Source: Cryomorphaceae bacterium (lineage in GTDB: Bacteria; Bacteroidota; Bacteroidia; Flavobacteriales_D; SKUL01). Taken from it: a stretch of DNA of 36,661 bases. The first letter of the stretch is position 1; the number at the start of each line of letters is the position of its first letter. The stretch is taken from contig REDV01000123.1 in the NCBI GenBank assembly GCA_007695365.1, positions 1 through 36,661 of the forward strand. Direction: 5' to 3'. Below the pieces are notes generated by a model. That model did no database searches and was not told the origin of the DNA. It saw nothing but the letters and a program-made list of their open reading frames with translations. Shown here one piece after another: positions 1,201 through 34,162 of this stretch. Both the position numbers and the translations under genes were made by a program.

Positions 1201-1215
1201 ATCGCCAGACCAATT

Positions 1216-3434: not shown

Positions 3435-3451
3435 GCTGTGGTCTTTTTCGG

Positions 3452-4345: not shown

Positions 4346-4361
4346 GGGTAGAAGTTTGGTG

Positions 4362-19400: not shown

Positions 19401-19877
19401 CACTTTCCACTGTTGCGCACAGTTCGGGGTGTATCACTCGAACGAATTGATTTTGATCGTCCAACCGACGACCGCACCAATTGGATGTCGGCCGCAGAAA
19501 CCGTAAACTGGGGTACACCCGGGGTTGAAAATTCGCAGTTTCAGCGCGCAGCCGATGATGACGGCGAAGTATGGGTTGACCCCGAAATTTTTTCGCCGGA
19601 CAACGACGGCTTTAACGATGTGCTGAACATCAATTACCGTTTCAGTGAGCCGGGTCTGGCGGGAAGTATCACCATTTACGATTCGGCGGGGCGTTTACTG
19701 CGAAGGTTGGTGCGCAATGAGCTGCTGGGCACGGAAGGTACCATTTCGTGGGACGGCACCGGCGAGCAGGGAGAGCGTGCACGAATCGGCATTCACATCG
19801 TGTATTTTGAGGTGTACTCTCCCGACGGAATGGTGCGCGGCTACAAGCGCAGTTGCGTGGTATCATCGCGCTTCTGA
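16467..19877 (+). CDS. Secreted multidomain protein with lamin-tail and Ig-like repeats, T9SS-like C-terminus
   Basis: An 1136-residue exported protein. The GTG at 16467 is preferred because it adds an arginine before the hydrophobic signal (MIMLLVLATGYNLKAQ); an ATG at 16488 is the alternative. After an N-terminal beta-sandwich domain (to about residue 225), three pairs alternate: an Ig-like SbsA/Big_5-type domain (beginning at DETPPEV, DTDPPVL and DNVAPRL, near 227, 497 and 757) and a lamin-tail domain (VVFNELMVDE, VLINEIMADP, MIINEVLFNT, near 335, 600 and 865, each with an EFIELFN/EYIELYN/YVEMYN motif and ending in GGTPG or WGTPG). The last 100 residues (EIFSPDNDGFND, then IYDSAGRLLRRL and SWDGTGEQG) look like the gliding-motility/FlgD-type domains that serve as type IX secretion signals. 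Likely surface-attached or released; function unknown. Its end overlaps the convergent crtYcd gene by 15 bases. Confidence 0.85.
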   Translation: MSRICSYMIMLLVLATGYNLKAQIFDDFEDGDFTQNPAWTGDEDLFSVVPYELDESVLMLRSNSTGAATYYLSTPSFIVSETSWEFFFNLRFSVTGANFMDTWLVSDDDNLNNAQNGYFVRFGRTQKDISFWKRTAGSDELLFDGPDNQINSSTNNPFQIRITRNDEGLWLIWVDQGATGNFALLGVVNDSTHTTTAAFGFRIVQSGAAGPIQSHWINNVNVAVMPPDETPPEVIGTIAPQANEVILQFNEPLDEATAENVLNYSISDGIGAPTSATLNATTLTQVTLALGNPLNDGQTYTLTVSNVEDLAGNSMPPQEVDVLFFTIAEPEFREVVFNELMVDENPPVQLPAAEFIELFNTTTDKFFNTDGWTYVNGTTVRVLDEAIIPPGGYLILCRAADIPLFETFGPVLGLSSWPALTNAADSLTLISEGGTILDIVSYTIAWYQDPEKSGGGYTLEQINPFAECSGMMNWRATDDPSGGTPGAQNSIFDTTPDTDPPVLVDFNINNPQSITFFFNEPLDPESLNDATYTIEPPIEIESAGTGGDFSFINLQLAAPIDTGVFYTITITGVTDCPGNLIADQNSIEFLIGFIPGLHEVLINEIMADPTPAVGLPPHEYIELYNPTDKIFDLSGCRISTATFRPNTFIYPGEHLVLISPSNEGEFPGIEPQAVMQSMSTTFLTNAGRELFFANDNNELIDRVEYSDAWYRDAAKSGGGWSLERINPEEPCRGGDNWRASTNVNGGTPGFVNSVLDLTPDNVAPRLVAILVPDSVSIELVFDRVLDEIAALTAGYVFSPDLTLASIEPLSPANLRIRLTFTEPLEPNLRHDLEILGLTSCTGIDFENNDPAYFGVPAEPTSGNMIINEVLFNTRVGGATYVEMYNNSNAILSIRDWEIANLGNNQFRLITPEAYILFPGEYMAITTNKNNIIAEYPFGDPNRILQIPGMPSLNNNDGQVRLINADGQVVDAFDYEASMHFPLLRTVRGVSLERIDFDRPTDDRTNWMSAAETVNWGTPGVENSQFQRAADDDGEVWVDPEIFSPDNDGFNDVLNINYRFSEPGLAGSITIYDSAGRLLRRLVRNELLGTEGTISWDGTGEQGERARIGIHIVYFEVYSPDGMVRGYKRSCVVSSRF

Positions 19878-20573
19878 CCAGGGCGAAACACCGGCCCGGT
19901 TTCGAAACCACTCATAGAGTGCGGTAGTCATCAGCAGCATGGCAAATCCGTACACCGTGTCCTCCATTGGTATGGTGAGAATGCGTGTGCCGATGATGTG
20001 TGCCTCGTTGTAGTACACCACCACATTTCCGAGAAAAGAACCTGTGAGCACGCCGTTCACCAGGATAAAGGGCACGAGAATCACCCCAAACATCAGGTAA
20101 AAACGCCCGAGCCAAACAGGCCTCCAGGCAATTCCTACCCAGGCAAGGAGCAGAACAGCCGAAAAGGCGCTCCACAACGTATGCAAACGACCGGGGAACT
20201 TGATCAGCAACACCACGCAGAAAATGAGCAGCAGCCCGGTGATGTAGGGCGCCGCCTTCCCCAACAAATCCTTGTGGATAAAGTAGTTCAGCACCTCGTA
20301 CGAAAACAGGCATACGTAAGGAATCACAAAAAAGAACAGAATTTCCTCGATGGGCAGGCCGAGAATCTTCAAACCGAGCAGGTAATCGTCGTTGAAGCCC
20401 CAAACGCCCCAACGGGTAAACAGCACATCCCACACAATAAACACCAGCGCCATGACAAGTGTGGCCGGAAGCAAGTGTGGCATTTTCCCAATAAAATGGA
20501 TGTGTTTTCTCTCGAACGAGCGGATAACGGGCACCGCCAGTGAAAAGAGCAATACGAGGGAGTAGGTAAACAT
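19863..20573 (-). CDS. crtYcd: Lycopene beta-cyclase, fused CrtYc-CrtYd type
   Basis: It converts lycopene to beta-carotene in the cytoplasmic membrane. The 236-residue protein is almost entirely membrane helices and contains two tandem copies of the small heterodimeric-type lycopene cyclase domain. Copy one has FTRWGVWGFNDDYLLG followed by LPIEEILFF (near residues 73-81); copy two has YYNEAHIIGTRIL followed by IPMEDTVYGF (near 201-210). The paired acidic motifs (PIEE, PMED) are the conserved catalytic acids. In Gram-positive bacteria the halves are separate genes; the fused form is common in Bacteroidota. It is the last gene of the pigment operon, six bases after crtZ, and ends inside the tail of the convergent lamin-tail gene. 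Confidence 0.9.
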   Translation of the reverse strand: MFTYSLVLLFSLAVPVIRSFERKHIHFIGKMPHLLPATLVMALVFIVWDVLFTRWGVWGFNDDYLLGLKILGLPIEEILFFFVIPYVCLFSYEVLNYFIHKDLLGKAAPYITGLLLIFCVVLLIKFPGRLHTLWSAFSAVLLLAWVGIAWRPVWLGRFYLMFGVILVPFILVNGVLTGSFLGNVVVYYNEAHIIGTRILTIPMEDTVYGFAMLLMTTALYEWFRNRAGVSPWSEAR

Positions 20574-20579
20574 GAGCTG

Positions 20580-21056
20580 CTAGCCCCGGGCCGTCTTTTG
20601 CTTGCGTTTGTATTGAAGGGCCTCGCGGAAAAACTTCCAGGGCACAATCAACATACCGAAGCACTCGCCATCTTCCTTGCCGAGCTTTTTGTGGTGCACC
20701 TTGTGGGCCTTTCGGATTGCGCGCAGATACACGTTGTCGGTGCGGGTAAACCACTTGATGCGCTGATGAATCACAATTTCGTGGATAAAGGTGTAGGCCA
20801 CGCCATACACGAGAATGCCCCACCCGAAGGCCCGCGATACCGGCGATTCATAGATGCTGCCAAGCATCATCAGCAACCAGCTGGGAATGGCAAAAATCAG
20901 GAAGAATATATCGTTCTTTTCAAAGGGTTTTTCATCACGCACGTGGTGGTCTTCGTGAAGTACCCACAGAAATCCATGCATCACGTATTTGTGCATGGCC
21001 CACGCCACAAACTCCATGACCACAAAGGTTCCGATGACAATAAGGAAGAATTGCAC
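20580..21056 (-). CDS. crtZ: Beta-carotene hydroxylase (fatty-acid hydroxylase superfamily)
   Basis: It hydroxylates the beta-ionone rings of beta-carotene to give cryptoxanthin and zeaxanthin, using a di-iron centre and O2 in the membrane. The 158-residue protein has about four membrane helices and the full set of histidine boxes: His22 and His27 (MHKYVMH), His34, His37 and His38 (LHEDHH), the mid-protein FIHEIVIH, and HKVHH near residue 120. Length and motif spacing fit CrtZ. It lies 22 bases after the redox protein gene and six bases before the cyclase, so the operon can make zeaxanthin from the C40 backbone. No ketolase (crtW) is visible in the window. Confidence 0.93.
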   Translation of the reverse strand: MQFFLIVIGTFVVMEFVAWAMHKYVMHGFLWVLHEDHHVRDEKPFEKNDIFFLIFAIPSWLLMMLGSIYESPVSRAFGWGILVYGVAYTFIHEIVIHQRIKWFTRTDNVYLRAIRKAHKVHHKKLGKEDGECFGMLIVPWKFFREALQYKRKQKTARG

Positions 21057-21078
21057 GAGCTCGAATTTTGGAGCAAAG

Positions 21079-21594
21079 TTAGCAATTTAGTAGCTCTCGG
21101 TAGCGAGGTCGGTCTGAAGCATAGCGATGGATAAAACTTGAAATGACCTTATTTTGACGAAGCATAAATACGCCAGGCATTTGATAGGGGTCTGCAACGG
21201 GATTTCCGATAAGGTGTCCCTTGAGCAAACCGGCCACAAAGCCCCGCCAAATAACGCGTGGGCCAAGAAGTTGCCACCACTTGCCGCGATTCAGGCCATA
21301 CTCACGGTAGAGCTCCTGCTCGGGATCGGTAATGTGCGATACATCATCGAGCTCATAAATGTTCAGCACCTCGTTGGCGTAAGACATACGGCTCATGTGC
21401 ACAAGCACAATCTTGATGTTCTTTTTGGCGGCCTCTTCTTTGATTTTACTCAGCTCCACGAGCGATTCGCGGCAAAAAGTACAACCAAAATGGCGCAAAA
21501 AAACGAGAAGCACGGGGCCGTTATGACTCAGCTCGGATAGCTTCTCTCCTTTATTTGTAATGGCGTCGATCATATTCTCTGAAGGTTGAAACAA
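21079..21594 (-). CDS. Thioredoxin-fold redox protein (AhpC/TSA_2, SelL-like)
   Basis: A 171-residue cytoplasmic protein of the peroxiredoxin-like AhpC/TSA_2 group. A redox CxxC motif lies at Cys38-Cys41 (FLRHFGCTFC) after the first strand (VLLVFLRHF), followed by IVLVHMSRMS, a TDPEQELYREYGL segment and the late QMPGVFMLRQNKV strand that closes the fold. There is no signal peptide. The family is often labelled SelL-related redox protein, and selenocysteine is replaced by cysteine here. It sits between the photolyase and crtZ with 22-base gaps on both sides, so it is part of the pigment/photorepair transcript. A role in removing peroxides or keeping an electron carrier reduced for the hydroxylase is inference only. 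Confidence 0.78.
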   Translation of the reverse strand: MFQPSENMIDAITNKGEKLSELSHNGPVLLVFLRHFGCTFCRESLVELSKIKEEAAKKNIKIVLVHMSRMSYANEVLNIYELDDVSHITDPEQELYREYGLNRGKWWQLLGPRVIWRGFVAGLLKGHLIGNPVADPYQMPGVFMLRQNKVISSFIHRYASDRPRYRELLNC

Positions 21595-21616
21595 CTCATC
21601 GCGGCAAAAGTTTCGA

Positions 21617-22933
21617 TTATTTGAATTTTACTGCTTCTGCATAGCGCTGTATAGCACGCTCACGCGCGAACCTGTGCTCAACAACTGGAAGGGGGTATTG
21701 GTTCAGTTCATTGAGTTCGGGGACCCATTTTCTGGTGTACACGCCTTTGGCATCAAACTTTTCGGCCTGCAAAGCCGGATTGAAAACCCTGAAATAAGGC
21801 GCTGCATCACAACCGGTTCCGGCGGCCCACTGCCAGCTCCCGTTGTTGCTTGCAAGTTCAAAGTCCAATAGGTGCCGTGCAAACCAGGCTTCACCCTTTC
21901 GCCAGTCAATCAGCAGGTGTTTGGTGAGGAAACTGGCCGTAATCATGCGCACGCGGTTGTGCATGTGGCCTGTTTGGAGCAATTCGCGCATTCCGGCATC
22001 TACGATGGGATATCCGGTTTGACCCTTGCACCACGCCTCGAAATGTGCTTCGTTGTTTTCCCAGTTGATGCGGTCGTATTCCGGCCGGAAAGACCGCGTT
22101 ACCACATGCGGAAAATGATGGAGAATGCTCATAAAAAACTCACGCCACACAAGCTGCTTCAGCCATACTTCGCCGTGCTCGGCTCCCTTGCGAATCATGT
22201 CGCGCACCGACACCGTTCCGAAGCGCAGGTGAATGCCGAGGCGCGAGGTGCCATCCACGGCAGGAAAGTCGCGCTTTTCGCCATAAGCCTGCACGATTTT
22301 GGCCGGCACATCGCTTCCGGGAAAGGGGTAGTTTCGGTCTTCAAATCCCATTTCAGCGAGGGTAGGCATGGGCAAAGCTGCGTAGCGATGGAGGGCACTG
22401 AGCAGGTCTTCGGACGGGTAATTGGGCACTCCGTCGGTTTTCATGCGCTCCAGCCATTTTCTGGAATACGGCGTGTACACCGTGTAGGGCTTGCCATCTG
22501 CTTTCAGGATGTCGCCACCCTCAAATAGCACCTGGTCTTTGAAGCTTTGAAAGCCAATATCTTTTTCGCGGAGCATTGCCGCCACCTCGCTGTCACGGCG
22601 CGTTGCATAGGGTTCGTAGTCGTGGTTGGTGTACACGGCATCCACGGGGAAGGATTCACTTATCTGCTTGAAAACATCGAGCGGACGACCGTAAAAGACC
22701 TGCAAATCGCCTCCCTCCTTTCGCAGAAGCGTGCGCAGATTTTCCAATCGGCGATAGATAAACACCACGCGCCGGTCGTCGGGCGGCAGCTCATCGAGGA
22801 TATCGCGGTCAAATACAAAGACAGGCAATACAGGCCTTCCGGAGCTGAGGGCGCGGTATAATCCGTGGTTGTCGTTGAGACGCAAATCGCGCCTGAACCA
22901 AAATACCGCAACGGACTGGGCGTTGATTGACAT
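21617..22933 (-). CDS. phrB: Deoxyribodipyrimidine photolyase / cryptochrome family
   Basis: It repairs UV-induced cyclobutane pyrimidine dimers with blue light and FADH-. The 438-residue protein has the N-terminal antenna Rossmann domain (VFWFRRDLRLNDNHGL, residues 10-25) and a helical FAD domain with TGYPIVDAGMREL near 302-314, HNRVRMITASFLTKHL near 321-336 and the strongly conserved NNGSWQWAAGTGCDAAPYFR near 364-383. These are the signature residues of class I CPD photolyases; the length is somewhat short for the family but complete. A cryptochrome-type photoreceptor cannot be excluded by eye. It stands in the middle of the carotenoid operon, 30 bases after crtB and 22 before the redox gene, so photorepair and pigment are made together. 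Confidence 0.93.
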   Translation of the reverse strand: MSINAQSVAVFWFRRDLRLNDNHGLYRALSSGRPVLPVFVFDRDILDELPPDDRRVVFIYRRLENLRTLLRKEGGDLQVFYGRPLDVFKQISESFPVDAVYTNHDYEPYATRRDSEVAAMLREKDIGFQSFKDQVLFEGGDILKADGKPYTVYTPYSRKWLERMKTDGVPNYPSEDLLSALHRYAALPMPTLAEMGFEDRNYPFPGSDVPAKIVQAYGEKRDFPAVDGTSRLGIHLRFGTVSVRDMIRKGAEHGEVWLKQLVWREFFMSILHHFPHVVTRSFRPEYDRINWENNEAHFEAWCKGQTGYPIVDAGMRELLQTGHMHNRVRMITASFLTKHLLIDWRKGEAWFARHLLDFELASNNGSWQWAAGTGCDAAPYFRVFNPALQAEKFDAKGVYTRKWVPELNELNQYPLPVVEHRFARERAIQRYAEAVKFK

Positions 22934-22963
22934 GTGCGAAAGTTGAGTGAAGCAGCAGACCTG

Positions 22964-23809
22964 CTAAATCATATTGAGCTGATGCCTCAGGTAGCTTGTA
23001 AGGAACAGCAGGTACTTGCGTTTGTTCGAAATGCGAATGCGCGTGGTTAGAATCACCGATGCCGGTGTGCGCTTAACCTTGTTGAAGAGCTGCTGATAGT
23101 AAACGTAGGCCACATACACCCCAAAGCGCGATTTTTTGGGCAACATGCGAATGCCGGTGAGGCCCTCGTCGAAGTCTTTCTGAACATCCACCTCAATTTC
23201 CTTCTTCACCGCGTCGTTGAACTCGCCCATTTCCACCCCGGGAAAATAGGTGCGCCCCATGATTTGGTAATCGGCTTTGAGGTCGCGCAGAAAGTTGATT
23301 TTCTGAAATGCAGAACCCAGTCGGCGGGCGTAGTGCTTTAGGTCGTCGTAGCGATTGACGTCGCCCTCCAGGAAAACACGCAGGCACATCAGGCCCACCA
23401 CCTCTGCCGAGCCATCAATGTATTCCTTGTAGCCTTCCTCGTCGTAGTTTTTCTCGCTGAGGTCGAGCTCCATGCTGTGCAGGAAGGTATCTATGAGCTC
23501 ACGCTCAATGTGGTACTTGTTTACCACCAATTGAAAGCTGTGCAGAATGGGGTTCAGGCTGATTTTTTCTTCAATAGCGCGGTAGGTATCGGCTTTGAAA
23601 CGGTCGAGCAGTTCGCGTTTGTTGTGTTCGTGAAAGGTGTCAACAATCTCGTCGGCAAAGCGCACAAAACCGTAGATGCCATATATGGGCAGGTGAAAAT
23701 CGCGGTGCAGAAACCGGATACCCAAAGAGAAAGATGTGCTGTACTTATTGGTGGTAAGCTTGCTGCAATGCAAACACACGTCATCGTATAGGTCTCGCTG
23801 GCGACTCAT
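22964..23809 (-). CDS. crtB: Phytoene synthase
   Basis: It condenses two geranylgeranyl diphosphates to phytoene, the first committed step to C40 carotenoids. The 281-residue protein of the squalene/phytoene synthase family has both Asp-rich Mg-diphosphate motifs: DEIVDTFHEH (near residues 52-61) and FLRDLKADYQIMGRTYFP (near 173-190). The SFSLGIRFLHRD segment near residue 26 and the YVYYQQLFNKV end also fit. Squalene synthase is less likely because the gene adjoins crtI and crtZ. The gap to crtI is 31 bases. No geranylgeranyl diphosphate synthase is seen in this window, so the precursor must come from elsewhere. Confidence 0.93.
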   Translation of the reverse strand: MSRQRDLYDDVCLHCSKLTTNKYSTSFSLGIRFLHRDFHLPIYGIYGFVRFADEIVDTFHEHNKRELLDRFKADTYRAIEEKISLNPILHSFQLVVNKYHIERELIDTFLHSMELDLSEKNYDEEGYKEYIDGSAEVVGLMCLRVFLEGDVNRYDDLKHYARRLGSAFQKINFLRDLKADYQIMGRTYFPGVEMGEFNDAVKKEIEVDVQKDFDEGLTGIRMLPKKSRFGVYVAYVYYQQLFNKVKRTPASVILTTRIRISNKRKYLLFLTSYLRHQLNMI

Positions 23810-23840
23810 GCTGCAAAGTTAATTTTCCTTGTGACTCTGC

Positions 23841-25319
23841 TCAGCGCTGCTCGCGGGCAATCTGCTTCGAAACTACTTTTCCGGAAATGATGGTGGGAGG
23901 CACCCCGGGGCCCGGCACCGTAAGCTGACCGGCAAAGTAGAGGTTCTTTACTTTTTTGCTTTTGAGCGAGGGCTTGAGCACAGCCGTTTGCAGCAGGGTG
24001 TTGGCCAAACCGTACGCGTTACCTTTAAAGCTGTTGTAGTCTTCCACGAAGTTGCGGTGTGCGTACGACGCTTTAACCTCAATATGATCGCGTATGGAGG
24101 TTCCGCAAAAACGCTCCAGTTTGTCCATGGCGTAATTGAAGTACTTTTCGCGCACCTCGTCGGTGTCTTCAAGGCCAATCGCCACAGGAATGAGGATCAC
24201 CAGGTTTTCGCCGTTTTCGGGTGCAACCGAGGGGTCTTTTCTGGAGGCGCATGACACGTACAACAAGGGCTTGGTGGGCCATTGAGGACGGTCGTAAATT
24301 TCTTCCGCATGCTGATCAAAAGGCTCATCGAAAATGAGGTTGTGGTGCAGAAGGTTGTCGAGCTTCTTGTTCACCCCGAGGTAAAACAGCAGGCTGGATG
24401 GTGCCATTACGCGGGTGTTCCAGTATTTCTCGCTATAGTTTCGGTAGGGCGCTTCGAGTAATTTCTGGTCAATATGGTTGTAATCACCGGCGCCTACAAG
24501 CACATCACAGGGGTAGGTGCCTTTGTCGGTTTCAACGGCAACTGCCTTGCCGCTTTCAACTACAATTTTGGTCACCGCTTCATTGAACCTGAATTCAGCA
24601 CCTTGTTTGCGGGCCACTTCAGCCATTCCGCGGGCCACCATGTGCATGCCTCCCATGGGGTACCATGTTCCGAGGCGCAGGTCAGCGTAGTTCATCAGGC
24701 TGTAAAGTGCTGGTGTATCGCCCGGTTTGGCTCCGAGAAACAGCACCGGAAACTCCAGCAACTGGCGCAAACGCTCGTTCTTGAATTTCTTGTGGATTTC
24801 CTTGCGGATGGAGCTGAACAAATCGAGTTTAAAGAGTGCCTTGAGCACCTTGATATCTGCAAACTCAAAGATGGAGAGGCCGGGCTTGTGCACAAATTCA
24901 CCCATACCTGTTTGGTACTTGAAGGCTGCATCATCGAGAAAGGCGCGCAGTTTGGCTCCGCTTCCGGGCTCGTATTGCTCAAAAAGTGCTTCCTGTGCGG
25001 CAGCGTCTGCGGCAATGTCCACAAATTCATCGGCACTAAAAAAGACCCGGTAGGCCGGGTCTAATTGAATAAGCTGGTAGAAATCGGAAGTTTTGTGCCC
25101 AAAATCGTTAAAAAACTGCTCAAATACTTCCGGCATCCAATACCAGCTAGGGCCCATGTCGAAGGTGTAACCCTTTTCTTTATACAACCTTGCCCTACCC
25201 CCCGGTTCGGAAAGTTTTTCAATAATGGTTACCTGAAAGCCCTGCTGGGCGAGATACGATGCAGATGAGAGCCCTGCAAACCCCGCACCGATTACAACTG
25301 CGCTTTTAGTCCTGGTCAT
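23841..25319 (-). CDS. crtI: Phytoene desaturase
   Basis: An FAD-dependent membrane-associated desaturase that converts phytoene to lycopene. The 492-residue protein begins with the dinucleotide-binding fold (VVIGAGFAGLSSASYL, residues 8-23, then IIEKLSEPGGRA) and the substrate-side motif GYTFDMGPSWYWMPEVF near 50-66. The C-terminal CrtI signature NLYFAGQLTVPGPGVPPTIISG is present near 462-483. Length matches bacterial CrtI. Its ATG overlaps the end of the sigma factor gene by 14 bases, so its translation is coupled to the sigma factor. CrtN- or CrtD-like desaturases are alternatives, but the crtB/crtZ/crtYcd context favours CrtI. Confidence 0.94.
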   Translation of the reverse strand: MTRTKSAVVIGAGFAGLSSASYLAQQGFQVTIIEKLSEPGGRARLYKEKGYTFDMGPSWYWMPEVFEQFFNDFGHKTSDFYQLIQLDPAYRVFFSADEFVDIAADAAAQEALFEQYEPGSGAKLRAFLDDAAFKYQTGMGEFVHKPGLSIFEFADIKVLKALFKLDLFSSIRKEIHKKFKNERLRQLLEFPVLFLGAKPGDTPALYSLMNYADLRLGTWYPMGGMHMVARGMAEVARKQGAEFRFNEAVTKIVVESGKAVAVETDKGTYPCDVLVGAGDYNHIDQKLLEAPYRNYSEKYWNTRVMAPSSLLFYLGVNKKLDNLLHHNLIFDEPFDQHAEEIYDRPQWPTKPLLYVSCASRKDPSVAPENGENLVILIPVAIGLEDTDEVREKYFNYAMDKLERFCGTSIRDHIEVKASYAHRNFVEDYNSFKGNAYGLANTLLQTAVLKPSLKSKKVKNLYFAGQLTVPGPGVPPTIISGKVVSKQIAREQR

Positions 25320-25821
25320 TGTACTGGTAGTGCGGCAAAGATAGCATTAGTTTACGCCGCGCCAGAAAGATCCGGCTTTTTACCGTACCGATAGGGAGAC
25401 CCAGCTCATCAGCTATTTCCTTGTAGCGAAAACCGTTGAAGTACATCATAAACGGTATGCGATAGGTGTCTTCCAGCTCACTCACCACATCAGAAACCTC
25501 GCGGTGGTGAAACATGGACTCCGGGTGATCGTCGTTTGCACTTTTGGTTTGGTTCAGGAAGAAGTTCTCCTCGGTAGTATCCACAATGGTATTGGCTCTA
25601 ACTGCCTTGCGGTAGTTGTTGATGAAGGTATTCTTCATGATGGTGTACAACCACGCTTTCAGGTTGGTGCCCTTTTTAAATTTTGAGCGATACGAAAGCG
25701 CTTTGTACATGGTTTCCTGAAGAAGGTCTTTGGCCTCTTCCTCGTCGCCGGTAAACTTGTAGGCAAATCCCTTGAGAGATGATTGCGCTTCGATTACCTC
25801 TTGATTAAAGTCGAATGTCAT
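25306..25821 (-). CDS. ECF-type RNA polymerase sigma factor
   Basis: A 171-residue sigma-70 family factor with region 2 (TGDEEEAKDLLQETMYKAL near residues 24-42 and LKAWLYTIMKNTFINNYRK near 54-72) and region 4 (FRYKEIADELGLPIGTVKSR near 130-149). I place the start at the ATG at 25821 (MTFDFNQEV) instead of the upstream ATG at 25881: a full-consensus -7 box lies between them at 25851-25858, so the upstream ATG would lie outside the transcript. It is the first gene of the operon and overlaps crtI. No anti-sigma factor gene is adjacent, unlike the CarQ-CarR pair of Myxococcus, so its activity is probably set by transcription, most simply by the upstream CarH-like regulator. It may amplify its own operon or switch on genes elsewhere. 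Confidence 0.88.
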   Translation of the reverse strand: MTFDFNQEVIEAQSSLKGFAYKFTGDEEEAKDLLQETMYKALSYRSKFKKGTNLKAWLYTIMKNTFINNYRKAVRANTIVDTTEENFFLNQTKSANDDHPESMFHHREVSDVVSELEDTYRIPFMMYFNGFRYKEIADELGLPIGTVKSRIFLARRKLMLSLPHYQYNDQD

Positions 25822-25895
25822 TTGTTTAACGTTTTTGGTGATTTGTTCAACAAACGTACAACACTGTTTAATGATTTCCAAGGATGGTTAAACAA
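25822..25895 (-). promoter_or_regulatory. Promoter and candidate CarH operator of the sigma-crt-phr operon
   Basis: On the minus strand a TTG (25881-25879) is followed after 20 bases by TACGTTTG (25858-25851), a full match to the Bacteroidota TAnnTTTG box. Plus-strand half-sites TTGTTTAA (25822-25829), TTGTTCAA (25843-25850) and CTGTTTAA (25864-25871) are spaced exactly 21 bases apart, and a copy in the opposite direction (TTAAACAA) is at 25888-25895. The middle half-site abuts the -7 box, the place expected for a repressor. That the CarH-like protein binds here is inference. Confidence 0.65.
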
Positions 25896-25957
25896 AATTT
25901 CTGTTAAATTTGGGTGGACTCACCCCCATCACCTGAAAACATGCTGATTAAACGCTG

Positions 25958-26845
25958 TTAAAGCGCGGTCTTAAAATCCTGTACGGACTCGGAAAAGTGC
26001 ACCGTGGATGGCGCATCGAAAGAAAAATCGCGCTGAAAGGAGTTCACTACGTGTACCGGAAGTTCACCCGTAACTTTCACAATAGCACGTAATACAGCTT
26101 CGATATCTTCCCTGGCATTGTAGGAAAGGAGGGCCGTAACGCACTCATCCGGTTTTTGGATACGGATTACTTCTTCGAGGTCTTTAAGCGGCACGGACTG
26201 ACCGAGATAAATGACTTTGTGTCCGGCCCTTTGAATGAGGTAGCTGTGAAAAAGCAGTCCCATTTCGTGGAGTTCACCTTCGGGGAGGAACAATAAAAAG
26301 GTGCGCGCATCGGGACGGCGCTGACCGGGCAGGGAGTCAATGGCAACCACCAGTTTTTGCCTGATCAGATTGGAGATGAAATGCTCCTGTGCTGCGTTGA
26401 TGCTTCCGGTGAGCCAGAGCACGCCCACTTTTTTGAAAAAGGGATAGATAACCTGAAGCATGGTGTTTTCAAAACCGATTCTGAGGGCACTTCCTGCGAG
26501 GATGTGATTGAAACGCGCCTCATCGAGGTCAATCATGGCAATTACAAGCCCCTCTACCTGCACGCGATGATCACCAAAATCGCTTGTAAACTCCACCACT
26601 CGCGCGTTGATTTCGTCGGGGCTCATTTTTACGATATCGGATATCCTCAGGCCCTTTTGGTTGAGCACGGCCACATTCAGGAGCTTTCGCAATTCATCTC
26701 CCGAATAGTTCCTTATATTGGTGTCGCTCCGCAGCGGGGTAAGCAGGTTGTAGCGCTGCTCCCACATGCGAATGGTGTGTGCTTTCACGCCGGAAAGCCG
26801 CTCCAGGTCTTTAATGGAATACTGTGCTGCAGGTGCTGAGTTCAT
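25958..26845 (-). CDS. carH: MerR-type regulator with B12-binding domain (CarH/LitR-like photoreceptor)
   Basis: A 295-residue regulator. The N-terminal MerR winged helix (YSIKDLERLSGVKAHTIRMW, residues 9-28, and NYSGDELRKLLNVAVLNQ) binds DNA; a helical B12-cap and a Rossmann-like B12-binding domain follow. The diagnostic CarH residues are present: Wx9EH at Trp144/Glu154/His155, and ExHxxG at 191-196, whose His193 is the expected cobalt ligand. In CarH proteins adenosylcobalamin in the dark gives a tetramer that binds DNA, and light breaks the Co-C bond and releases it. The gene lies just upstream of the sigma-crt-phr operon and diverges from uvrC. Half-sites on its own promoter suggest autorepression. 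Family and B12-motif calls are strong; light response is inferred. Confidence 0.88.
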   Translation of the reverse strand: MNSAPAAQYSIKDLERLSGVKAHTIRMWEQRYNLLTPLRSDTNIRNYSGDELRKLLNVAVLNQKGLRISDIVKMSPDEINARVVEFTSDFGDHRVQVEGLVIAMIDLDEARFNHILAGSALRIGFENTMLQVIYPFFKKVGVLWLTGSINAAQEHFISNLIRQKLVVAIDSLPGQRRPDARTFLLFLPEGELHEMGLLFHSYLIQRAGHKVIYLGQSVPLKDLEEVIRIQKPDECVTALLSYNAREDIEAVLRAIVKVTGELPVHVVNSFQRDFSFDAPSTVHFSESVQDFKTAL

Positions 26846-26982: not shown

Positions 26983-28773
26983 ATGTCGCTCGAAGCGAAA
27001 ATAGCTGCTGTTCCGCGCAAGCCGGGCATTTACCAGTTTTACGACTCCGAAGGAAAGATTCTGTATATCGGGAAGGCGGTCAATCTGCGTAGCCGGGTAG
27101 GATCATATTTCACGAAAGCCGGCGGCCATAGCGGCAAGACCCGGCTGATGGTGAAGCGCATTGCCGACATCCGATTTATTGTAGTTGACAATGAATATGA
27201 TGCGCTTCTGCTCGAAAACAACCTGATTAAAAAGCACCAGCCGCGCTACAACGTGATGCTGAAGGATGACAAGACCTACCCGTGGATCTGTATCCGCAAC
27301 GAGCGTTTTCCGCGAGTGTTTGCCACCCGTCAGCTGTTGAAGGACGGCTCACAGTACTTCGGGCCCTATGCTTCGGTAAAAGCCATGCACACCGTGCTGG
27401 ATGTCATCAAGCAACTGTATCCGCTTCGAACCTGTGCATTTCCGCTCACCGAAAAAAATGTAAAGCAACGCCGCTACAGGGTGTGTTTGGAGTATCACAT
27501 TGGTAATTGCCTGGGGCCTTGCGAAGACTTGTTATCGGAAGATGACTACAATGCATCCATCCGCGAAGTGGCCGATATCCTGAAAGGGGATGCGCAGGTA
27601 GTGGTAAGCACCCTGAAGAACCGCATGAAGCAACTCGCCGAAGAGCTCAAGTTTGAGGAGGCGCAGGAGTGCAAGGAAAAGCTCGAAGCACTGGAGAAAT
27701 TCCGCAGTAAATCAACCGTGGTGAACCCATCCATACACAACGTGGATGTATTTACCGTGGTGAGCGACCAGAATGCCGGCTACGTGAACTTCCTGAAAGT
27801 GGCCAACGGAGCGGTGATTCAGGGGCATACTTTGCAGATAAAGAAAAGGCTCGAAGAAACGCATCAGGAGCTACTGCAAATAGGCATTGCCGAAATCCGG
27901 CAGCGTTTTGCCAGTCAGGCACCGGAAATTCTGGTTCCTTTTGAGCCCGAAATAACGCTGCCCGGCGTAAAATGGGTGGTGCCGCAAAGGGGCGACAAGA
28001 GGAAGCTGCTGGATTTGAGCGAGCGCAACGCCAAGTACTTTATGCTTGATCAACACCGCCAGGAGCGATTTACCGACCCCTCGCGCTTCAAAGACCGCGT
28101 GCTGGAGCAAATCAAAAATGACCTCCGCCTTAAGGAAATTCCGCGGCATATTGAGTGTTTCGACAACTCCAACATGCAGGGAACTCACCCGGTGGCAGCT
28201 TGCGTGGTATTTCGCGATGGCAAGCCCTCCAAAAAGGAGTACCGGCACTTCAACATCAAAACGGTGACAGGCCCCGATGACTACGCCTCCATGCGCGAAG
28301 TGGTGTATCGGCGCTACGCACGGCTAATGCGCGAAGGACAATCGCTACCCCAACTGATCGTTATAGACGGTGGTAAAGGGCAGCTCAGCGCAGCGGTGGA
28401 GAGCCTGGAGCAACTCGGACTTATCGGCAAGCTTGCGGTGATTGGCATTGCCAAGCGACTGGAAGAAATTTACTACCCCGACGACCCGGTTCCGCTGTAT
28501 CTGAACAAAACCTCTGAATCGCTCAAGGTTATTCAGCACCTGCGCAATGAGGCTCACCGCTTTGGCATTGAGCACCACCGCAACCTGAGAAGCAAGAATG
28601 CCTTGGGCACATCCCTCACCGACATTCCCGGCATAGGTCCGTCCATGGCGCAAAAACTGCTGCGCGCGTTTAAATCGGTAAAGCGCGTTGCCGGGGCCAA
28701 AGAAGAAGAACTGGCCGAAGTTGTGGGACCGGCAAGGGCCAGGGTGATATTGAAGCACCTCGCGCAGTCCTAA
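26983..28773 (+). CDS. uvrC: Excinuclease ABC subunit C
   Basis: It makes both incisions around bulky or UV lesions in nucleotide excision repair after UvrA and UvrB load. The 596-residue protein is full length: a GIY-YIG nuclease domain (PGIYQFYDSEGKILYIGKA, residues 14-32), a Cys motif CLEYHIGNCLGPC near 168-180, the UVR domain that binds UvrB (FEEAQECKEKLEALEKF near 216-232), the RNase H-like C-terminal nuclease (IECFDNSNMQGTHPVA near 388-403, IDGGKGQL near 461-468) and a helix-hairpin-helix pair (IPGIGPSMAQKLL near 549-561). It diverges from the CarH-like gene across 137 bases and shares that regulator's candidate half-sites. Its TAA overlaps the stop of the convergent glycosyltransferase gene. 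Confidence 0.96.
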   Translation: MSLEAKIAAVPRKPGIYQFYDSEGKILYIGKAVNLRSRVGSYFTKAGGHSGKTRLMVKRIADIRFIVVDNEYDALLLENNLIKKHQPRYNVMLKDDKTYPWICIRNERFPRVFATRQLLKDGSQYFGPYASVKAMHTVLDVIKQLYPLRTCAFPLTEKNVKQRRYRVCLEYHIGNCLGPCEDLLSEDDYNASIREVADILKGDAQVVVSTLKNRMKQLAEELKFEEAQECKEKLEALEKFRSKSTVVNPSIHNVDVFTVVSDQNAGYVNFLKVANGAVIQGHTLQIKKRLEETHQELLQIGIAEIRQRFASQAPEILVPFEPEITLPGVKWVVPQRGDKRKLLDLSERNAKYFMLDQHRQERFTDPSRFKDRVLEQIKNDLRLKEIPRHIECFDNSNMQGTHPVAACVVFRDGKPSKKEYRHFNIKTVTGPDDYASMREVVYRRYARLMREGQSLPQLIVIDGGKGQLSAAVESLEQLGLIGKLAVIGIAKRLEEIYYPDDPVPLYLNKTSESLKVIQHLRNEAHRFGIEHHRNLRSKNALGTSLTDIPGIGPSMAQKLLRAFKSVKRVAGAKEEELAEVVGPARARVILKHLAQS

Positions 28774-30182
28774 ACCGCATTCGGGTTCAGAACTTGCAGT
28801 AATTCATGGTTGAGCTCCTTTTGGAAGAAATGGTCCGGATTAAACGCTTGAGAAGGATAATCAAGTTTCATTGGGTCTTCATCGGCGTGCATTTTTGCCG
28901 CTACACCCAATGCAGCAATGGCTTCCACAAACGCGGCCATTTTATCTGAGTGTAACACTGCCCGCTTCAACCCGGGGAATCTTGTGGCTTCAAACAGCGT
29001 ATTGCTGTACATGCTCACGTAGTACTGGCACTTTCCGTAAAGATAGTCGAGGCTTGAGGAGCACACAAGCACATTGGGCAAACCTGTCACATCAGCATAT
29101 AGCGCGGGGGCTTCGGCCGGATGCAGTTTAATCACTATACCTGTTTCCGGGTTCTCCTTAAGGTACCTTTTTGACAAGGAGCCAATCAACTCATTAAATG
29201 CGACGTGACGCAAGTTTTGGGTGCCAACGAGAACCCTGGTAGAGTACTTTTCAGAAAATCGCGCTAATTCATCTGCATCTTGCCCCGGCATCGGGTTGCG
29301 CAAAAAGTAATCGCCGAAAACCTTGATTTGTCCGGGTTCGTATTCCGCCCCTTGTTGAAGTTGCTCTTTCCAGTAGTTGCCAAAAAGCCAAACCTCATCG
29401 GCAAAAAGCGCCCGCTTTGCCACCGGTTTGATTTTTTGAGGATAGACGTAAAAATGTGAAGCAGGCGTAATGACTCCATGCTGCAACTCTATCACCTTGA
29501 TCTGCAGGCTTCGTGCAGCAGCAATAAAATACTCGGTATAATAGCCGGGGGCCATCACTACCATACTGGGTTCTGTTAGCTCAAGATAAGCGCGCACAGC
29601 CCTGTAGGCCTGCCAGAATTCATCCAGACCAGCTTCAATGTGCCTTACATCCTCCCTGGTCAAGGTGGTTCTTTCAGGAACTCTCTGCAAAATACGCCTG
29701 AACCCAGATATCATTTTTCTGTCATGCGCATTCAGTTTGAGGTTTCTCCCCGAAGCAATAATTTCTCCTATATGCGCATCCGCAGAGGGCTCGCCGTTCG
29801 CCTTGCCCCGCAAATACACCACATAGTACTCTTCTCTTTTCAGTTTTTCTGTTAATTTGCTCAAATACTGATGTTTCAGAACCCCTTCTACATCAACAAA
29901 CCTCGGAGGAACAAGGTACATTAAATCCGGCTTCTTCTTCGTTCGGGGCCGATGAAGACCACGAACTCCACGAAGTCTGGCGCGTAACTTCGAAAGAAAA
30001 AGACGCAGAGAGATTTTGGCAAAAGACTGGCCGATGTAGGTAGTCCGGTCATGTTCACCTATTCGCCGAAACACTGAATCCTGGGCTACCTTCAGCAAGT
30101 TGAAGCCCTCACAGTCAAAAACGCCGGGGTCATCAAAAGAGGCAAGAAAGCGCTCAGAAACCGGTGGCTTTTGAAGCTGCAT
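28770..30182 (-). CDS. Putative GT-B-like glycosyltransferase of capsule/LPS type
   Basis: A 470-residue cytoplasmic protein without membrane segments. The C-terminal half resembles the GT-B fold of capsule and ulosonic-acid transferases: a QHG motif at 234-236 (VIELQHGVITPAS), a VKVFGDYFL-type strand near 287, a KLHP motif at 352-355 and a nucleotide-binding region with SNTLFEA at 393-399. The QHG/KLHP/SxxxxEA set is seen in polysialyltransferase-, KpsC/KpsS- and CDP-glycerol-transferase-like enzymes, which often use CMP- or CDP-linked donors. That agrees with the cytidylyltransferase two genes upstream. Its ATG overlaps the HAD phosphatase stop by one base. The DNA is AT-richer than that of uvrC, as is common for glycan genes. 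The acceptor is unknown. Confidence 0.68.
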   Translation of the reverse strand: MQLQKPPVSERFLASFDDPGVFDCEGFNLLKVAQDSVFRRIGEHDRTTYIGQSFAKISLRLFLSKLRARLRGVRGLHRPRTKKKPDLMYLVPPRFVDVEGVLKHQYLSKLTEKLKREEYYVVYLRGKANGEPSADAHIGEIIASGRNLKLNAHDRKMISGFRRILQRVPERTTLTREDVRHIEAGLDEFWQAYRAVRAYLELTEPSMVVMAPGYYTEYFIAAARSLQIKVIELQHGVITPASHFYVYPQKIKPVAKRALFADEVWLFGNYWKEQLQQGAEYEPGQIKVFGDYFLRNPMPGQDADELARFSEKYSTRVLVGTQNLRHVAFNELIGSLSKRYLKENPETGIVIKLHPAEAPALYADVTGLPNVLVCSSSLDYLYGKCQYYVSMYSNTLFEATRFPGLKRAVLHSDKMAAFVEAIAALGVAAKMHADEDPMKLDYPSQAFNPDHFFQKELNHELLQVLNPNAV

Positions 30183-30820
30183 TACAAGCAGTTAAAATCG
30201 CGAATGTAGTACACCGAAATATCCTCGAGCGCTGGATTATTGAAGCCAAGAAAATCGACGCCGTGCGCCGCAGCGGCCTCGTAATCGTTGATGGAATCGC
30301 CTATCAGGGCTGTAGATTGCGGTGTGTAGCCATGCTGCTCCATCAAGCGGCCCACCCACTCTTTTTTGGGTGTTGGCGACCCGTGAATGGACTCAAAGAA
30401 ATGACTAAGCTCCAGGATGTCGCAAAGTTTTCTCAACTCCTGCTGATCCGAACCCGACACTACATGCATTGCGAAGTCGTTGTGCTTTCGCTCCAAAAAC
30501 CGGTGCGTGGGTTGAATGAGCAAATCGGGATTTCCGAGTTCCTCGAGCATGATGCGCGAAAAAGCTGCGGCCAGCTCTGCCAAACGCTCGTCCGACAATT
30601 CCTCACCGCGAATTTCTTCAAAAAAGTAGCGGAACTTCACGTAGCGCGACAAGCCTCCATTTTTCCTGTGATAGGCCAGCAGTGATTCAACCTGGTCTGT
30701 CGGAAAATCCTCCAGCACCCGCACAAACCCGCGGTCGCGAATGGGCATGGAGTTTAGAATCACGCCGTCAAAATCCCACAACAGGGTTTCGTAGTGATGG
30801 ATATTAGACTTATCACTCAC
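30182..30820 (-). CDS. HAD superfamily phosphatase
   Basis: A 212-residue hydrolase of the phosphoglycolate phosphatase-like HAD class with a small helical cap after motif I. Catalytic features are complete: the nucleophile Asp16 and acid Asp18 (LLWDFDGVILNS), motif II VVSGSDQQE near 119-127, a motif III lysine in TPKKEW near 149-154, and motif IV LIGDSINDYEAA near 171-182. It overlaps the cytidylyltransferase and the glycosyltransferase genes by four and one bases, so it is made together with them. By analogy with KdsC in Kdo synthesis, it may remove phosphate from the aldol product before CMP activation; that is inference, and KdsC itself is a smaller, capless relative. Confidence 0.87.
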   Translation of the reverse strand: MSDKSNIHHYETLLWDFDGVILNSMPIRDRGFVRVLEDFPTDQVESLLAYHRKNGGLSRYVKFRYFFEEIRGEELSDERLAELAAAFSRIMLEELGNPDLLIQPTHRFLERKHNDFAMHVVSGSDQQELRKLCDILELSHFFESIHGSPTPKKEWVGRLMEQHGYTPQSTALIGDSINDYEAAAAHGVDFLGFNNPALEDISVYYIRDFNCL

Positions 30821-31551
30821 TGTTCTCTACGCTTTATTTCGGCAATTACACGCTCAACGTCCTCCGGTGTATCAACAGCGATGGAATCTTGCGAAAGTTC
30901 AATCATCCGAACTTCGTAACCCATCTCAAGGAAGCGCAGGATTTCTATATCCTCCATACTTTCAAGGGGCGTTTTTTGGTTTCGTGAGGCGAAGTCCATC
31001 AGGGCTGTTTTTGGAAAGGCATAGACGCAAATCTGGCGCCATGCCCTGTAAAATTCATTCTGCTTGTGCCCGGGAATAGGGCTTCGCGACATGTACAGCA
31101 AACGGCCATCAGGGCGCAGTACCACCTTCGGCACTGAGGTGCTACGGTATGAATGCTCATCCGAAATCGGTGCAAAACCATTGATCACCTCACCCGGGTG
31201 GTTCCGCGCAGCTTCTACGGTTCGGGTAATATCTTCCGGATTGAAAAGGGGTTCATCACCCTGCACATTCACGTAAAACGACGCATCCATTTCTTTCGCC
31301 ACAGCCGCCACGCGGTCGGTACCGGTAAGGCATTTTTCGGGTGTCATCAGCACGCGCATTCCGCGCTCCTCGCAATGGTCAAAAATTTTGGGGTGGTCGG
31401 TGGCAACCACTACCTGGTCTTCGGGCAGTGCTTTGAGGCATTGCCGGTAGGTTCGTTCAATCATGGATTGCCCACAAAGATTCACGAGCGGCTTTTCGGG
31501 CAGCCGGGTGCTTTTTAGGCGGGCCGGTATAACTACGAGAAACTCCATCAA
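30817..31551 (-). CDS. KdsB-like cytidylyltransferase (CMP-sugar acid synthase)
   Basis: A 244-residue nucleotidyltransferase of the CMP-Kdo synthetase family, which activates 3-deoxy-2-keto sugar acids with CTP. The nucleotide-binding start is PARLKSTRLPEKPL (9-22), and VNVQGDEPLF (94-103) carries the Mg-binding Asp. The end SIAVDTPEDVERV (223-235) also fits. Two positions differ from true KdsB: the conserved R-H-[IL]-G-[IL]-Y segment reads RQICVY (172-177), with Gln in place of His and Cys in place of Gly, and the late motif is TPLESMEDIEIL in place of the usual LE-LEQL form. This suggests a substrate other than Kdo. It overlaps its neighbours by four bases each way in a four-gene cassette. 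A separate, standard kdsB would be expected elsewhere in the genome. Confidence 0.85.
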   Translation of the reverse strand: MMEFLVVIPARLKSTRLPEKPLVNLCGQSMIERTYRQCLKALPEDQVVVATDHPKIFDHCEERGMRVLMTPEKCLTGTDRVAAVAKEMDASFYVNVQGDEPLFNPEDITRTVEAARNHPGEVINGFAPISDEHSYRSTSVPKVVLRPDGRLLYMSRSPIPGHKQNEFYRAWRQICVYAFPKTALMDFASRNQKTPLESMEDIEILRFLEMGYEVRMIELSQDSIAVDTPEDVERVIAEIKRREQ

Positions 31552-33113
31552 ATCAACAGGCTGTAGAGCGACTGAACTTCCAGCGCGTCGTACTTGGAGG
31601 GGGTAACAGATTTCAGTTCAACGCCCCGAGAACGGTAGGCCGCGAACATCTGGTTGTTTTCAAGAAATAGCGCTTGCTCTTTCTCGCCCATTTTGGTTTC
31701 GCTGTAACCATCGTATCCGGCCACAAAAATCTGACCTGCCCCAAGTGCCAGGGCCGTTTCTATGGCGATGATGGTTGATGAGTCCGAAGGCATTTGCTCA
31801 GATGAGAGCGAAGGCAGTTCAAAGGTACGACCTTCGACGATGGACGGAATATAGGTTCCCATCTTACGTGGGAATGGAGGTAAAATGCAGGTGCCGTTAA
31901 AGGCTCCAAAGCTATTGAACAAAGCCTCCAGCCTGTGACCTTCGCTGCCTACCAGCGCAAAGTACTGGGTTGCGTCCAGGTCGAGGTAATGGCCCGCATT
32001 GCGCGAGCTGGAATGAATGACGCAGGTTCCGGGGTTTCGCTGCACCCACGCCTTGATAGCCGAAGCATGAGCTTGGGCGCTGGGGCCTCCGCCCACAATG
32101 ACCGCGCGTTTAATGCCTGATTCCGGGGCAAATACGGGAAGCCTTTGATTGTCCTCGATGCCCTCTTTTTGGTTCTGCAACGCCCGTATAATACTATTGA
32201 ATGAATAGTAGCGCTTGCTCACCCACTCCATCACGTCTTTTTGCGGAAGCGAATTGGCCCCCGAGACCATGTAGGGAAGGTTGGTGCCCCAGCCGTGTTG
32301 AGCCTGTAAGGCTTCGAACGCATCTACCACGCCACTCAGCTTATTGAAGTCCACGTGCAAGCCGTTGCGGGCATTCAAGGCCGTGAGCAATAGCTCCGTT
32401 TTGAGATTTCCCGCCCCGCGACCCATTCCGGTTACGGTGGCATCCACAATGCTTGCCCCGTGAGCGATGGCAGTGAGGGTGTTTACCAACGCAAGTTCAA
32501 GGTTGTTGTGTCCGTGAAAACCGATGGGAACGGTAACCTGTGACTTTACAAGCTCCATCATCTCAGCCACATCTTCGGGGTACACACCGCCAAAAGAATC
32601 AACGAGGTAGAAGTAGTCCGCCACATCATTCACCGCGTGCAAGCCATCCATAAAGCCCGGAAGCGATTTCCAGGTGCTCATATACATCACGTTAAAGGCC
32701 ACCTCGTAGCCCAGCTCTTTCACTGCGCGGGCCAGCACAATAGCACGGTCCATGTTTTTAGGATCCACCGCCATGCGCACCAAATCAATGTAGCTGCGCA
32801 CAGGGCCAAGTAACTCAGGCACCTGCTCTGCGCGAAAGTCTTTCTCATTGAGGATGATGGCCAGCTTTTTTCCGGATGCCTCACGCGCATGGCGCAGCAC
32901 GTACTCCGGGCAGTAAAAATACTTGCCGAAATAGGGTTTAAGGGGCTGGCTGCGGTAACCGATTTCCAGATAAGAAACCGGTAAATGGTTGAAGGACTCA
33001 AAGTACTGATTGACCAACTCTTCACTAAAATCCCACTGGGTATAATAGCCCCCGTCGCGAAGGGTGCAATCGAGAATGGTAACCGGATGGGGTGTTGGAT
33101 TCATAGACGCCAT
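31548..33113 (-). CDS. HMGL-type aldolase fused to a Rossmann-like C-terminal domain
   Basis: A 521-residue two-domain protein. Residues about 10-310 are a DRE-TIM metallolyase/HMGL-type barrel: the first strand motif ILDCTLRDGG (13-22) with metal-binding Asp15, the metal-binding GFHGHNN (198-204, His200 and His202) and the loop GMGRGAGN (229-236). This family joins or splits a pyruvate or acetyl unit and an aldehyde or keto acid. Residues about 330-521 form a second domain with VIVGGGPSA near 339-347 and FVAGYDGY near 475-482, like a Rossmann-type or DUF115-like unit. Such fusions occur in surface-glycan clusters. As first gene of the cassette with a KdsB-like enzyme, a HAD phosphatase and a transferase, it may make the keto-sugar acid skeleton in place of KdsA or NeuB. 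That role is inference. Confidence 0.8.
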   Translation of the reverse strand: MASMNPTPHPVTILDCTLRDGGYYTQWDFSEELVNQYFESFNHLPVSYLEIGYRSQPLKPYFGKYFYCPEYVLRHAREASGKKLAIILNEKDFRAEQVPELLGPVRSYIDLVRMAVDPKNMDRAIVLARAVKELGYEVAFNVMYMSTWKSLPGFMDGLHAVNDVADYFYLVDSFGGVYPEDVAEMMELVKSQVTVPIGFHGHNNLELALVNTLTAIAHGASIVDATVTGMGRGAGNLKTELLLTALNARNGLHVDFNKLSGVVDAFEALQAQHGWGTNLPYMVSGANSLPQKDVMEWVSKRYYSFNSIIRALQNQKEGIEDNQRLPVFAPESGIKRAVIVGGGPSAQAHASAIKAWVQRNPGTCVIHSSSRNAGHYLDLDATQYFALVGSEGHRLEALFNSFGAFNGTCILPPFPRKMGTYIPSIVEGRTFELPSLSSEQMPSDSSTIIAIETALALGAGQIFVAGYDGYSETKMGEKEQALFLENNQMFAAYRSRGVELKSVTPSKYDALEVQSLYSLLI

Positions 33114-33160: not shown

Positions 33161-34162
33161 TCAGACAAGCTTGTCCGAAAGGATGCTCATCTCGATAGAC
33201 GGAGCGATGTTGTCGTACACAATGTTGTACACTGCATGGCAAATGGGCAAATCAACCTGAAACTTTTTGTTCATTTCAATGATGGATTTTGCCGCGTAGT
33301 AACCCTCTGCCACCATGTTCATTTCCATCATGGCCGATTTTACCGAATAGCCTTTGCCAATCATGCTACCAAAGGTTCTGTTTCGGCTGAACTGAGAGTA
33401 GCCGGTTACCAGCAGGTCGCCGAGATAGGCCGAAGTTTTCACATCCCGGTGAATGGGGTTCACAGCGTCCACAAAGCGTTCAATTTCCAGAATAGAATTG
33501 GACATGAGCACCGCCTGAAAGTTATCGCCGTAGCCGAGGCCATGACAGATTCCGCTGGCCACGGCAAACACATTTTTCATCACTGCCGACAGCTCGGTAC
33601 CGAACAAATCGTCGGAAGTAGTGGTGTGGATGTAACGCGTTGCAAGCACTTTGGCTACTATTTCGGCTTTGCTCAAATCGCTGCAGGCAATGGTGAGGTA
33701 CGACAGCCTTTCCATGGCTACTTCTTCGGCGTGGCAGGGGCCGCTGATCATGGCAATGGAATCGTAGGGAACGCCAAACTGCTTGTGGAAATAACGCGCA
33801 GGTATGGCATGGTAGGCAGCAATGATTCCTTTAATAGCCGAAACCATGACCTTGTCCTCGTAACCTTTGCAATCGAAATCCTTAAAAAGGTCGTACACAA
33901 AAGCCGATGGAGTAGCCATGATGATGATGTCGCCCCATTGCATGGCATGTGCCAGATCGGTGGTAAGCAGGATTTTTTGGGTATCGAACTTTACCGAGGG
34001 CAGGTAGCGAGGGTTGCGTCCGAATTCCTTGATATAGGTGAGTTTACTTTCACTACGCATCCACCAGCAAACCTCATCGAGGTTTTCGGTGAGCATTTTC
34101 ATGATAGCGGTGGCCCAGCTTCCGCCGCCAATCACCGACACACGTGGTTTGCTTTCAATCAT
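33161..34162 (-). CDS. gpsA: NAD(P)-dependent glycerol-3-phosphate dehydrogenase
   Basis: It reduces dihydroxyacetone phosphate to sn-glycerol-3-phosphate for phospholipid synthesis. The 333-residue protein has the Rossmann motif GGGSWATAI (12-20), the conserved SAIKG lysine (Lys111), SGPCHAEEV (140-148) and the catalytic lysine segment [17 protein letters not shown] with Lys196. The late [18 protein letters not shown] and the C-terminal helices also match. Length is usual. It diverges from tyrS over 165 bases and is followed after 47 bases by the aldolase gene, so the glycan cassette may be read through from the gpsA promoter. Confidence 0.94.

Follow-up and report, generated by a model that had tools for sequence, protein, structure and literature searches.

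The 36,661-nucleotide stretch analysed here (contig REDV01000123.1, positions 1 to 36,661, of the Cryomorphaceae bacterium assembly GCA_007695365.1; hereafter the window) carries a cassette of four overlapping minus-strand genes (Table 1), which probably encodes biosynthesis of a cytidine monophosphate (CMP)-activated 3-deoxy-2-keto (ulosonic) acid free of a phosphoenolpyruvate (PEP)-dependent synthase, a chemistry predicted from gene content and conserved residues. The assignment of the product to the ulosonic acid class is strong, and the substrate and direction of the reaction are proposed more cautiously. To our knowledge, the known CMP-activated ulosonic acids (3-deoxy-D-manno-oct-2-ulosonic acid [Kdo], sialic, legionaminic, and pseudaminic acids) are all built by PEP-dependent synthases. 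The pathway logic of condensation, dephosphorylation, CMP activation, and transfer is a known one, while the kind of synthase and its domain fusion differ; no functional description of such a cassette was found in the open-licence literature searched.

Table 1. Genes and domains of the proposed CMP-ulosonate cassette, in window positions.
Feature	Position	Strand	Assignment and basis
521-aa aldolase of HMGL/DRE-TIM type, fused to a Maf/Cst-II-like C-terminal domain	31548..33113	-	Proposed ulosonate (phosphate) synthase; PF00682, 3dxi match
Catalytic TIM barrel, residues ~11-319	32157..33083	-	52-sequence alignment, Foldseek, alignment to 1nvm/8ih7/4lrs
Aldolase C-terminal domain, residues 320-521	31551..32156	-	AlphaFold2 model, VIA-align, sub-threshold PF01973
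KdsB-family CMP-sugar synthetase	30817..31551	-	PF02348, NF009905; start probably ATG 31548
HAD-superfamily phosphatase	30182..30820	-	HAD_2 (PF13419), E 3e-15
GT-B-like putative ulosonate transferase, family otherwise encoded with NeuB	28770..30182	-	Homologous loci

The aldolase, the cytidylyltransferase, and the HAD phosphatase form a real conserved unit, in an arrangement far beyond chance. Every one of the 64 loci with a full-length aldolase, near-duplicates included, has a PF02348 cytidylyltransferase no more than four genes downstream (63 by clustering and L039 through a partial gene at a contig end, with the neighbour in L061 assigned by hand). The copy in the window matches CTP_transf_3 (E 2e-46) and passes the NF009905 subfamily (286.5 bits, cut-off 255), staying below the cut-offs of the equivalogs TIGR00466 (134 against 155) and PRK05450.1-1 (164 against 281); it is 31% identical to the canonical KdsB of the same genome and lies outside the separate clade of canonical KdsBs (support 95/86). 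Across loci, the enzyme is of the KdsB type in 23/64 and of the NeuA type in 41/64, and the type switches 14 times on the aldolase tree by parsimony, at least eight switches being forced by well-supported branches. Since the two types are swapped while aldolase and phosphatase stay, we infer an ulosonic acid as the product.

In 52 of the 64 loci, relatives of the HAD phosphatase, with about 29-57% identity, lie on the downstream side of the aldolase, and their retention beside both types of CMP-transferase argues for a phosphorylated intermediate. The gene that follows differs between loci, a GT29 sialyltransferase-family gene (PF00777) standing directly next in 10 and an MptE-like gene in 4. 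Consequently, the original prediction of a co-occurring four-gene unit holds for the first three genes and fails for the fourth, which varies by locus; its calls of HMGL, KdsB-like cytidylyltransferase, and HAD families were confirmed by Pfam and NCBIfam. Many cassette loci lie within clusters of glycosyltransferase and sugar-nucleotide genes, and 15 of the 17 with a NeuB gene as well contain an additional cytidylyltransferase, so that NeuB has a partner of its own. As variations in gene order, a PF03328 aldolase stands directly after the HMGL-type aldolase in L036 (11539-12297) and about eight further loci, also in genomes G112 and G054, and in L069, a locus without HAD phosphatase, a PfkB-family sugar kinase (12295-13323) follows the CMP-transferase.

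The barrel of the aldolase matches HMGL-like PF00682 at residues 11-255 (E 2e-25), and its nearest solved structure is 3dxi (E 7e-122; about 55% identity over residues 12-322; TM-score 0.96), which is titled 'putative aldolase' and represents only the N-terminal domain of BVU_2661, a member of the same family. In a Foldseek search with the AlphaFold2 model (pLDDT 91.5), 3dxi and HOA aldolases specific for pyruvate made up the first 12 matches, the acetyl-CoA synthases ranking after them. Residues R19, D20, H200, H202, N204, and Y23 are invariant in 52/52 aligned sequences, and in the alignment to DmpG (1nvm), 8ih7, and 4lrs the first four coincide with the R/D/HxH metal-pyruvate site of HOA aldolases, the corresponding DmpG residues being the catalytic Arg and the metal ligands. 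The barrel thus resembles that of a pyruvate aldolase with the metal-pyruvate site retained and the base exchanged, and its activity is a predicted one. Compared with DmpG and BphI (1nvm, 8ih7), which have the TIM barrel and this site in common with it, the aldolase of the window carries a fused Maf-like domain, has a CMP-synthetase as its neighbour, and shows no partner acylating dehydrogenase.

Full-length aldolases of about 510 residues, with barrel and C-terminal domain, are rare (8/296 sampled genomes of the phylum); a pattern scan of genome contigs recovered 60 full-length loci, most of them from Bacteroidota; the outliers, with 35-38% identity, come from Calothrix and from a Methylococcaceae bin. 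A typical Bacteroidota-type cassette was also seen in a record titled as a Streptomyces griseus metagenome-assembled genome (L083), a bin probably mislabelled or mixed. In the open-licence literature, no functional study was found of 3dxi/BVU_2661 or of HMGL-type aldolases in CMP-sugar loci.

The C-terminal domain of the aldolase, modelled alone (AlphaFold2, pLDDT 93.4), aligned by VIA-align best with the Maf glycosyltransferase 5mu5 (Z 14.9; 188 aligned residues, 3.3 A), followed by SteA (Z 12.1), the archaeal MptE/HPPK protein 8sd5 (Z 11.5), Cst-II 1ro7 (Z 10.4; 168 aligned, 3.8 A), thiamin pyrophosphokinase (Z 10.3), Cst-I (Z 10.2), and a Pasteurella sialyltransferase (Z 9.9). This likeness comes from fold comparison only: a sequence profile of the domain alone gave no significant match in the PDB, and Foldseek with the domain alone no match below 0.001. 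The MptE-like family PF01973 scored 16.1 bits in the window copy, short of its gathering score of 34.6, and weak sub-threshold matches to it recur in 42/52 members of the aldolase family. G466, D468, and Y470 are invariant in the 52-sequence alignment, a stretch which may resemble the donor-site GxDxY of Cst-II and is offered as a lead. Furthermore, the central PF01973 domain of Maf enzymes has been reported to be similar to Cst-II, and CMP-nonulosonates and CMP-Kdo are substrates of Maf enzymes (PMC11339370).

In this context, binding of CMP or a CMP-sugar is the most likely role of the fused Maf/Cst-II-like domain, as a transferase or as a regulatory module, according to the predicted structure; because thiamin pyrophosphokinase also aligns, nucleotide binding is the safer inference than transfer. 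What distinguishes this domain from the Maf, Cst-II (GT42), and MptE-like proteins with which it has its fold in common is the fusion to an aldolase and a score below the Pfam cut-off, its activity being predicted. The extra Rossmann-like domain claimed by the original prediction was thus recovered as an extra domain, with a predicted Maf/Cst-II/MptE fold in place of a generic Rossmann one.

The fourth protein alone had no Pfam, NCBIfam, or PDB match, and its family was found in 17/395 genomes of the class at the default threshold, 11 of them besides the window matching over long stretches. NeuB lies within about 7 kb of its relatives in 9 of the 10 loci with usable flanks, as confirmed by Pfam on representatives, and directly adjoins them in L132 and L133; the aldolase therefore occupies the usual place of NeuB in the window. 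A profile of the family returned KpsC, a Kdo transferase, as the top, weak PDB matches (E 0.06), and 2 of 12 members weakly matched polysialyltransferase PF07388 (best E 0.0038). Judging from the NeuB neighbours and the weak KpsC matches, the fourth gene probably encodes a nonulosonate-type transferase.

In the proposed pathway, D20, H200, and H202 of the HMGL-type barrel would coordinate a divalent metal, and R19 would stabilise an enolate, formed from pyruvate or from oxaloacetate after decarboxylation, which would be added to a sugar aldehyde, probably one carrying a phosphate. The HAD enzyme would then take off the phosphate, the KdsB-like enzyme would join the free ulosonate to CMP, and the GT-B-like protein would transfer the sugar from CMP to a surface glycan. 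The substrates, the direction, the place of dephosphorylation in this order, any part taken by the C-terminal domain, and the final glycan are the conditional elements of the scheme. A phosphatase, CMP activation by a KdsB-family enzyme, and a transferase are also features of the Kdo pathway (KdsD, KdsA, KdsC, KdsB, WaaA), from which the cassette differs in having no KdsA, a different transferase, and a HAD enzyme of the phosphoglycolate-phosphatase/beta-phosphoglucomutase type. Likewise, the NeuA-type enzymes in most cassette loci and the GT family of the window are features of the NeuB/NeuA pathways, NeuB itself being replaced by the HMGL-type enzyme.

Several observations weigh against this reading or qualify it. 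The catalytic His of HOA aldolases, which follows RDG-x, is Tyr23 in 52/52 sequences, and with this swap the mechanism, and even the type of reaction, may differ. TIGR03217 (4-hydroxy-2-oxovalerate aldolase) gave 94.4 bits against a cut-off of 286, and because of this score and the replaced His the barrel stands outside the HOA aldolase family; the metal-pyruvate site of the originally predicted pyruvate-aldolase-type metal barrel was upheld, with the correction that the barrel is no bona fide HOA aldolase. In addition, a recognisable HAD gene is missing from the neighbourhood in 12/64 loci, a few of them at contig ends, and no sugar-precursor gene is common to all loci. Neither these HAD-less loci nor the PfkB kinase of L069 are accounted for by the simple scheme, and the same holds for the HpcH/HpaI aldolase (PF03328), a second pyruvate-type enzyme, inserted in about nine loci. 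No biochemistry for the full-length aldolase family was found in the open-licence literature.

The Tyr-for-His swap and the second aldolase would also fit an HMGL-type enzyme whose task is to form or alter a precursor or a side acid (by Claisen-type condensation, carboxyl transfer, or retro-aldol cleavage), the skeleton of the activated sugar coming from another enzyme, and the wider superfamily does include acetyl-CoA-dependent synthases and carboxyltransferases. This alternative is unlikely in view of the strict pairing with the CMP-synthetase, the leading Foldseek matches to 3dxi and pyruvate-specific HOA aldolases, and the cassette genomes G112, G123, and G054, which hold neither KdsA nor NeuB.

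The same three genomes, together with G203, which lacks KdsA and holds NeuB, and the KdsB-type cytidylyltransferases of many loci could instead point to a supply of ordinary Kdo that bypasses KdsA. Against such a bypass, the genome of the window (G000) encodes a KdsA above cut-off (338.7 bits) and, adjoining it on contig 102, KdsD; contigs 78 and 9 hold a second KdsB and WaaA, respectively, and since ordinary Kdo is made elsewhere in the same genome the cassette of the window represents something additional. Moreover, WaaA and a KdsD above cut-off were not found in any of the four KdsA-less cassette genomes (98-100% complete by estimate, an assembly gap being possible), so that the cassette does not serve as a replacement source of Kdo, and the NeuA-type enzymes that prevail across the loci do not fit one either. 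We consider a Kdo bypass very unlikely and rejected it on the full Kdo gene set of the window genome and the missing WaaA. In G112, the PF02348 matches are the cassette enzymes only; this genome carries two diverged aldolase cassettes (L103 and L104), about 20 kb apart, which flank an ATP-grasp module.

For the CMP-ulosonate pathway proposed here, no KdsA lies inside the cassette, the PEP-dependent KdsA lying on contig 102, and NeuB (PF03102) had no match in the window genome. The original prediction had counted KdsA or NeuB genes accompanying the cassette as evidence against it, and such company was seen only weakly, as an unlinked canonical Kdo pathway in the window's genome that has a separate KdsB and a WaaA. 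Its idea of a route free of KdsA and NeuB is in line with the CMP-synthetase present in every locus, the GT family paired elsewhere with NeuB, the GT29-like neighbours, the lack of an own NeuB, and the three genomes free of both synthases. The claim of a CMP-activated ulosonic-type sugar agreed with every available computational test and, taken as a whole, is partly supported.

A CMP-activated non-sugar acid, such as a phosphonate or sulfonate headgroup, would be a highly improbable product. A phosphonopyruvate/sulfopyruvate decarboxylase (TIGR03297) near the G123 cassette and a sulfolactate-dehydrogenase-like gene near that of G112 speak for it, and CMP activation is common in phosphonate biosynthesis (PMC6697681); but the cytidylyltransferases belong to the Kdo/sialate type, transferases of the GT29-, MptE-, and NeuB-associated kinds stand next to them, and PEP mutase (TIGR02320) was present in 0/8 genomes tested, on which ground a phosphonate route was rejected. 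HOA aldolases work as lyases in catabolism, which is the sole point for a catabolic aldolase that would split a sialic-acid-like sugar for recycling by the other genes, a reading made extremely improbable by the tight overlap of CMP-synthetase and glycosyltransferase genes within a single operon and by the many loci within glycosyltransferase and sugar-nucleotide clusters.

There is about an even chance that, across Bacteroidota and the cyanobacterial and gammaproteobacterial-bin outliers, the aldolase-Maf/sialyltransferase-like fusion replaces PEP-dependent synthases in CMP-ulosonic pathways and yields an undescribed ulosonic acid. If so, it would represent a second chemical solution for CMP-activated ulosonic acids, surveys that count KdsA or NeuB would overlook these sugars in many Bacteroidota, and the orphan structure 3dxi would gain a function.

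Regarding the layout of the cassette, the predicted minus-strand coordinates were confirmed, and so were overlaps of 4, 4, and 1 bases by open reading frame coordinates. At the aldolase/cytidylyltransferase junction, where TTGATG follows ..ATTTGA, the start is probably the ATG at 31548 and not the TTG at 31551, judging from the letters of the junction, which would give a TGATG junction with one shared base in place of four; the remaining junctions are GTGA (4 shared bases) and TAATG (1). The cassette is bordered on one side by uvrC (26983-28773), in convergent orientation, and on the other by a gpsA-like gene at 33161-34162; the latter, lying upstream, was rejected as a fifth member, being kept with the cassette in no other locus. 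A promoter and terminator scan gave no signal exceeding chance.

Beside the G123 and G112 cassettes, the phosphonopyruvate/sulfopyruvate decarboxylase (L105:17283-18383), an XcbD-like fumarase-family lyase (L105:13598-14941), and the L-sulfolactate-dehydrogenase-like gene (L103:16806-17804) suggest a sulfonate-like metabolism tied to these glycan loci. Elsewhere in the window, a second module (97-6898) comprises a sugar-transfer ATP-grasp protein, an ATP-grasp ligase, a 297-aa protein, an MmgE/PrpD-like protein, and a C-C bond lyase, and a DegT aminotransferase lies at 8340-9428. In G112 and G123, counterparts of this module (L144, L145) stand close to the aldolase cassette, and the 297-aa protein, 74-79% identical, is found in 3/296 genomes of the phylum, all with the cassette and from two genera; the ATP-grasp module and the aldolase cassette may travel together. 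Positions 19863-26845, encoding a lycopene cyclase, a DNA photolyase, a phytoene synthase, an amine-oxidase-family desaturase, an ECF sigma factor, and a MerR/B12-binding CarH-like regulator, form a probable light-controlled carotenoid cluster, as read from these gene assignments. Finally, a 1136-aa protein with three lamin-tail domains and one bacterial Ig-like domain is encoded at 16467-19877, divergently from a semialdehyde-dehydrogenase-family gene.

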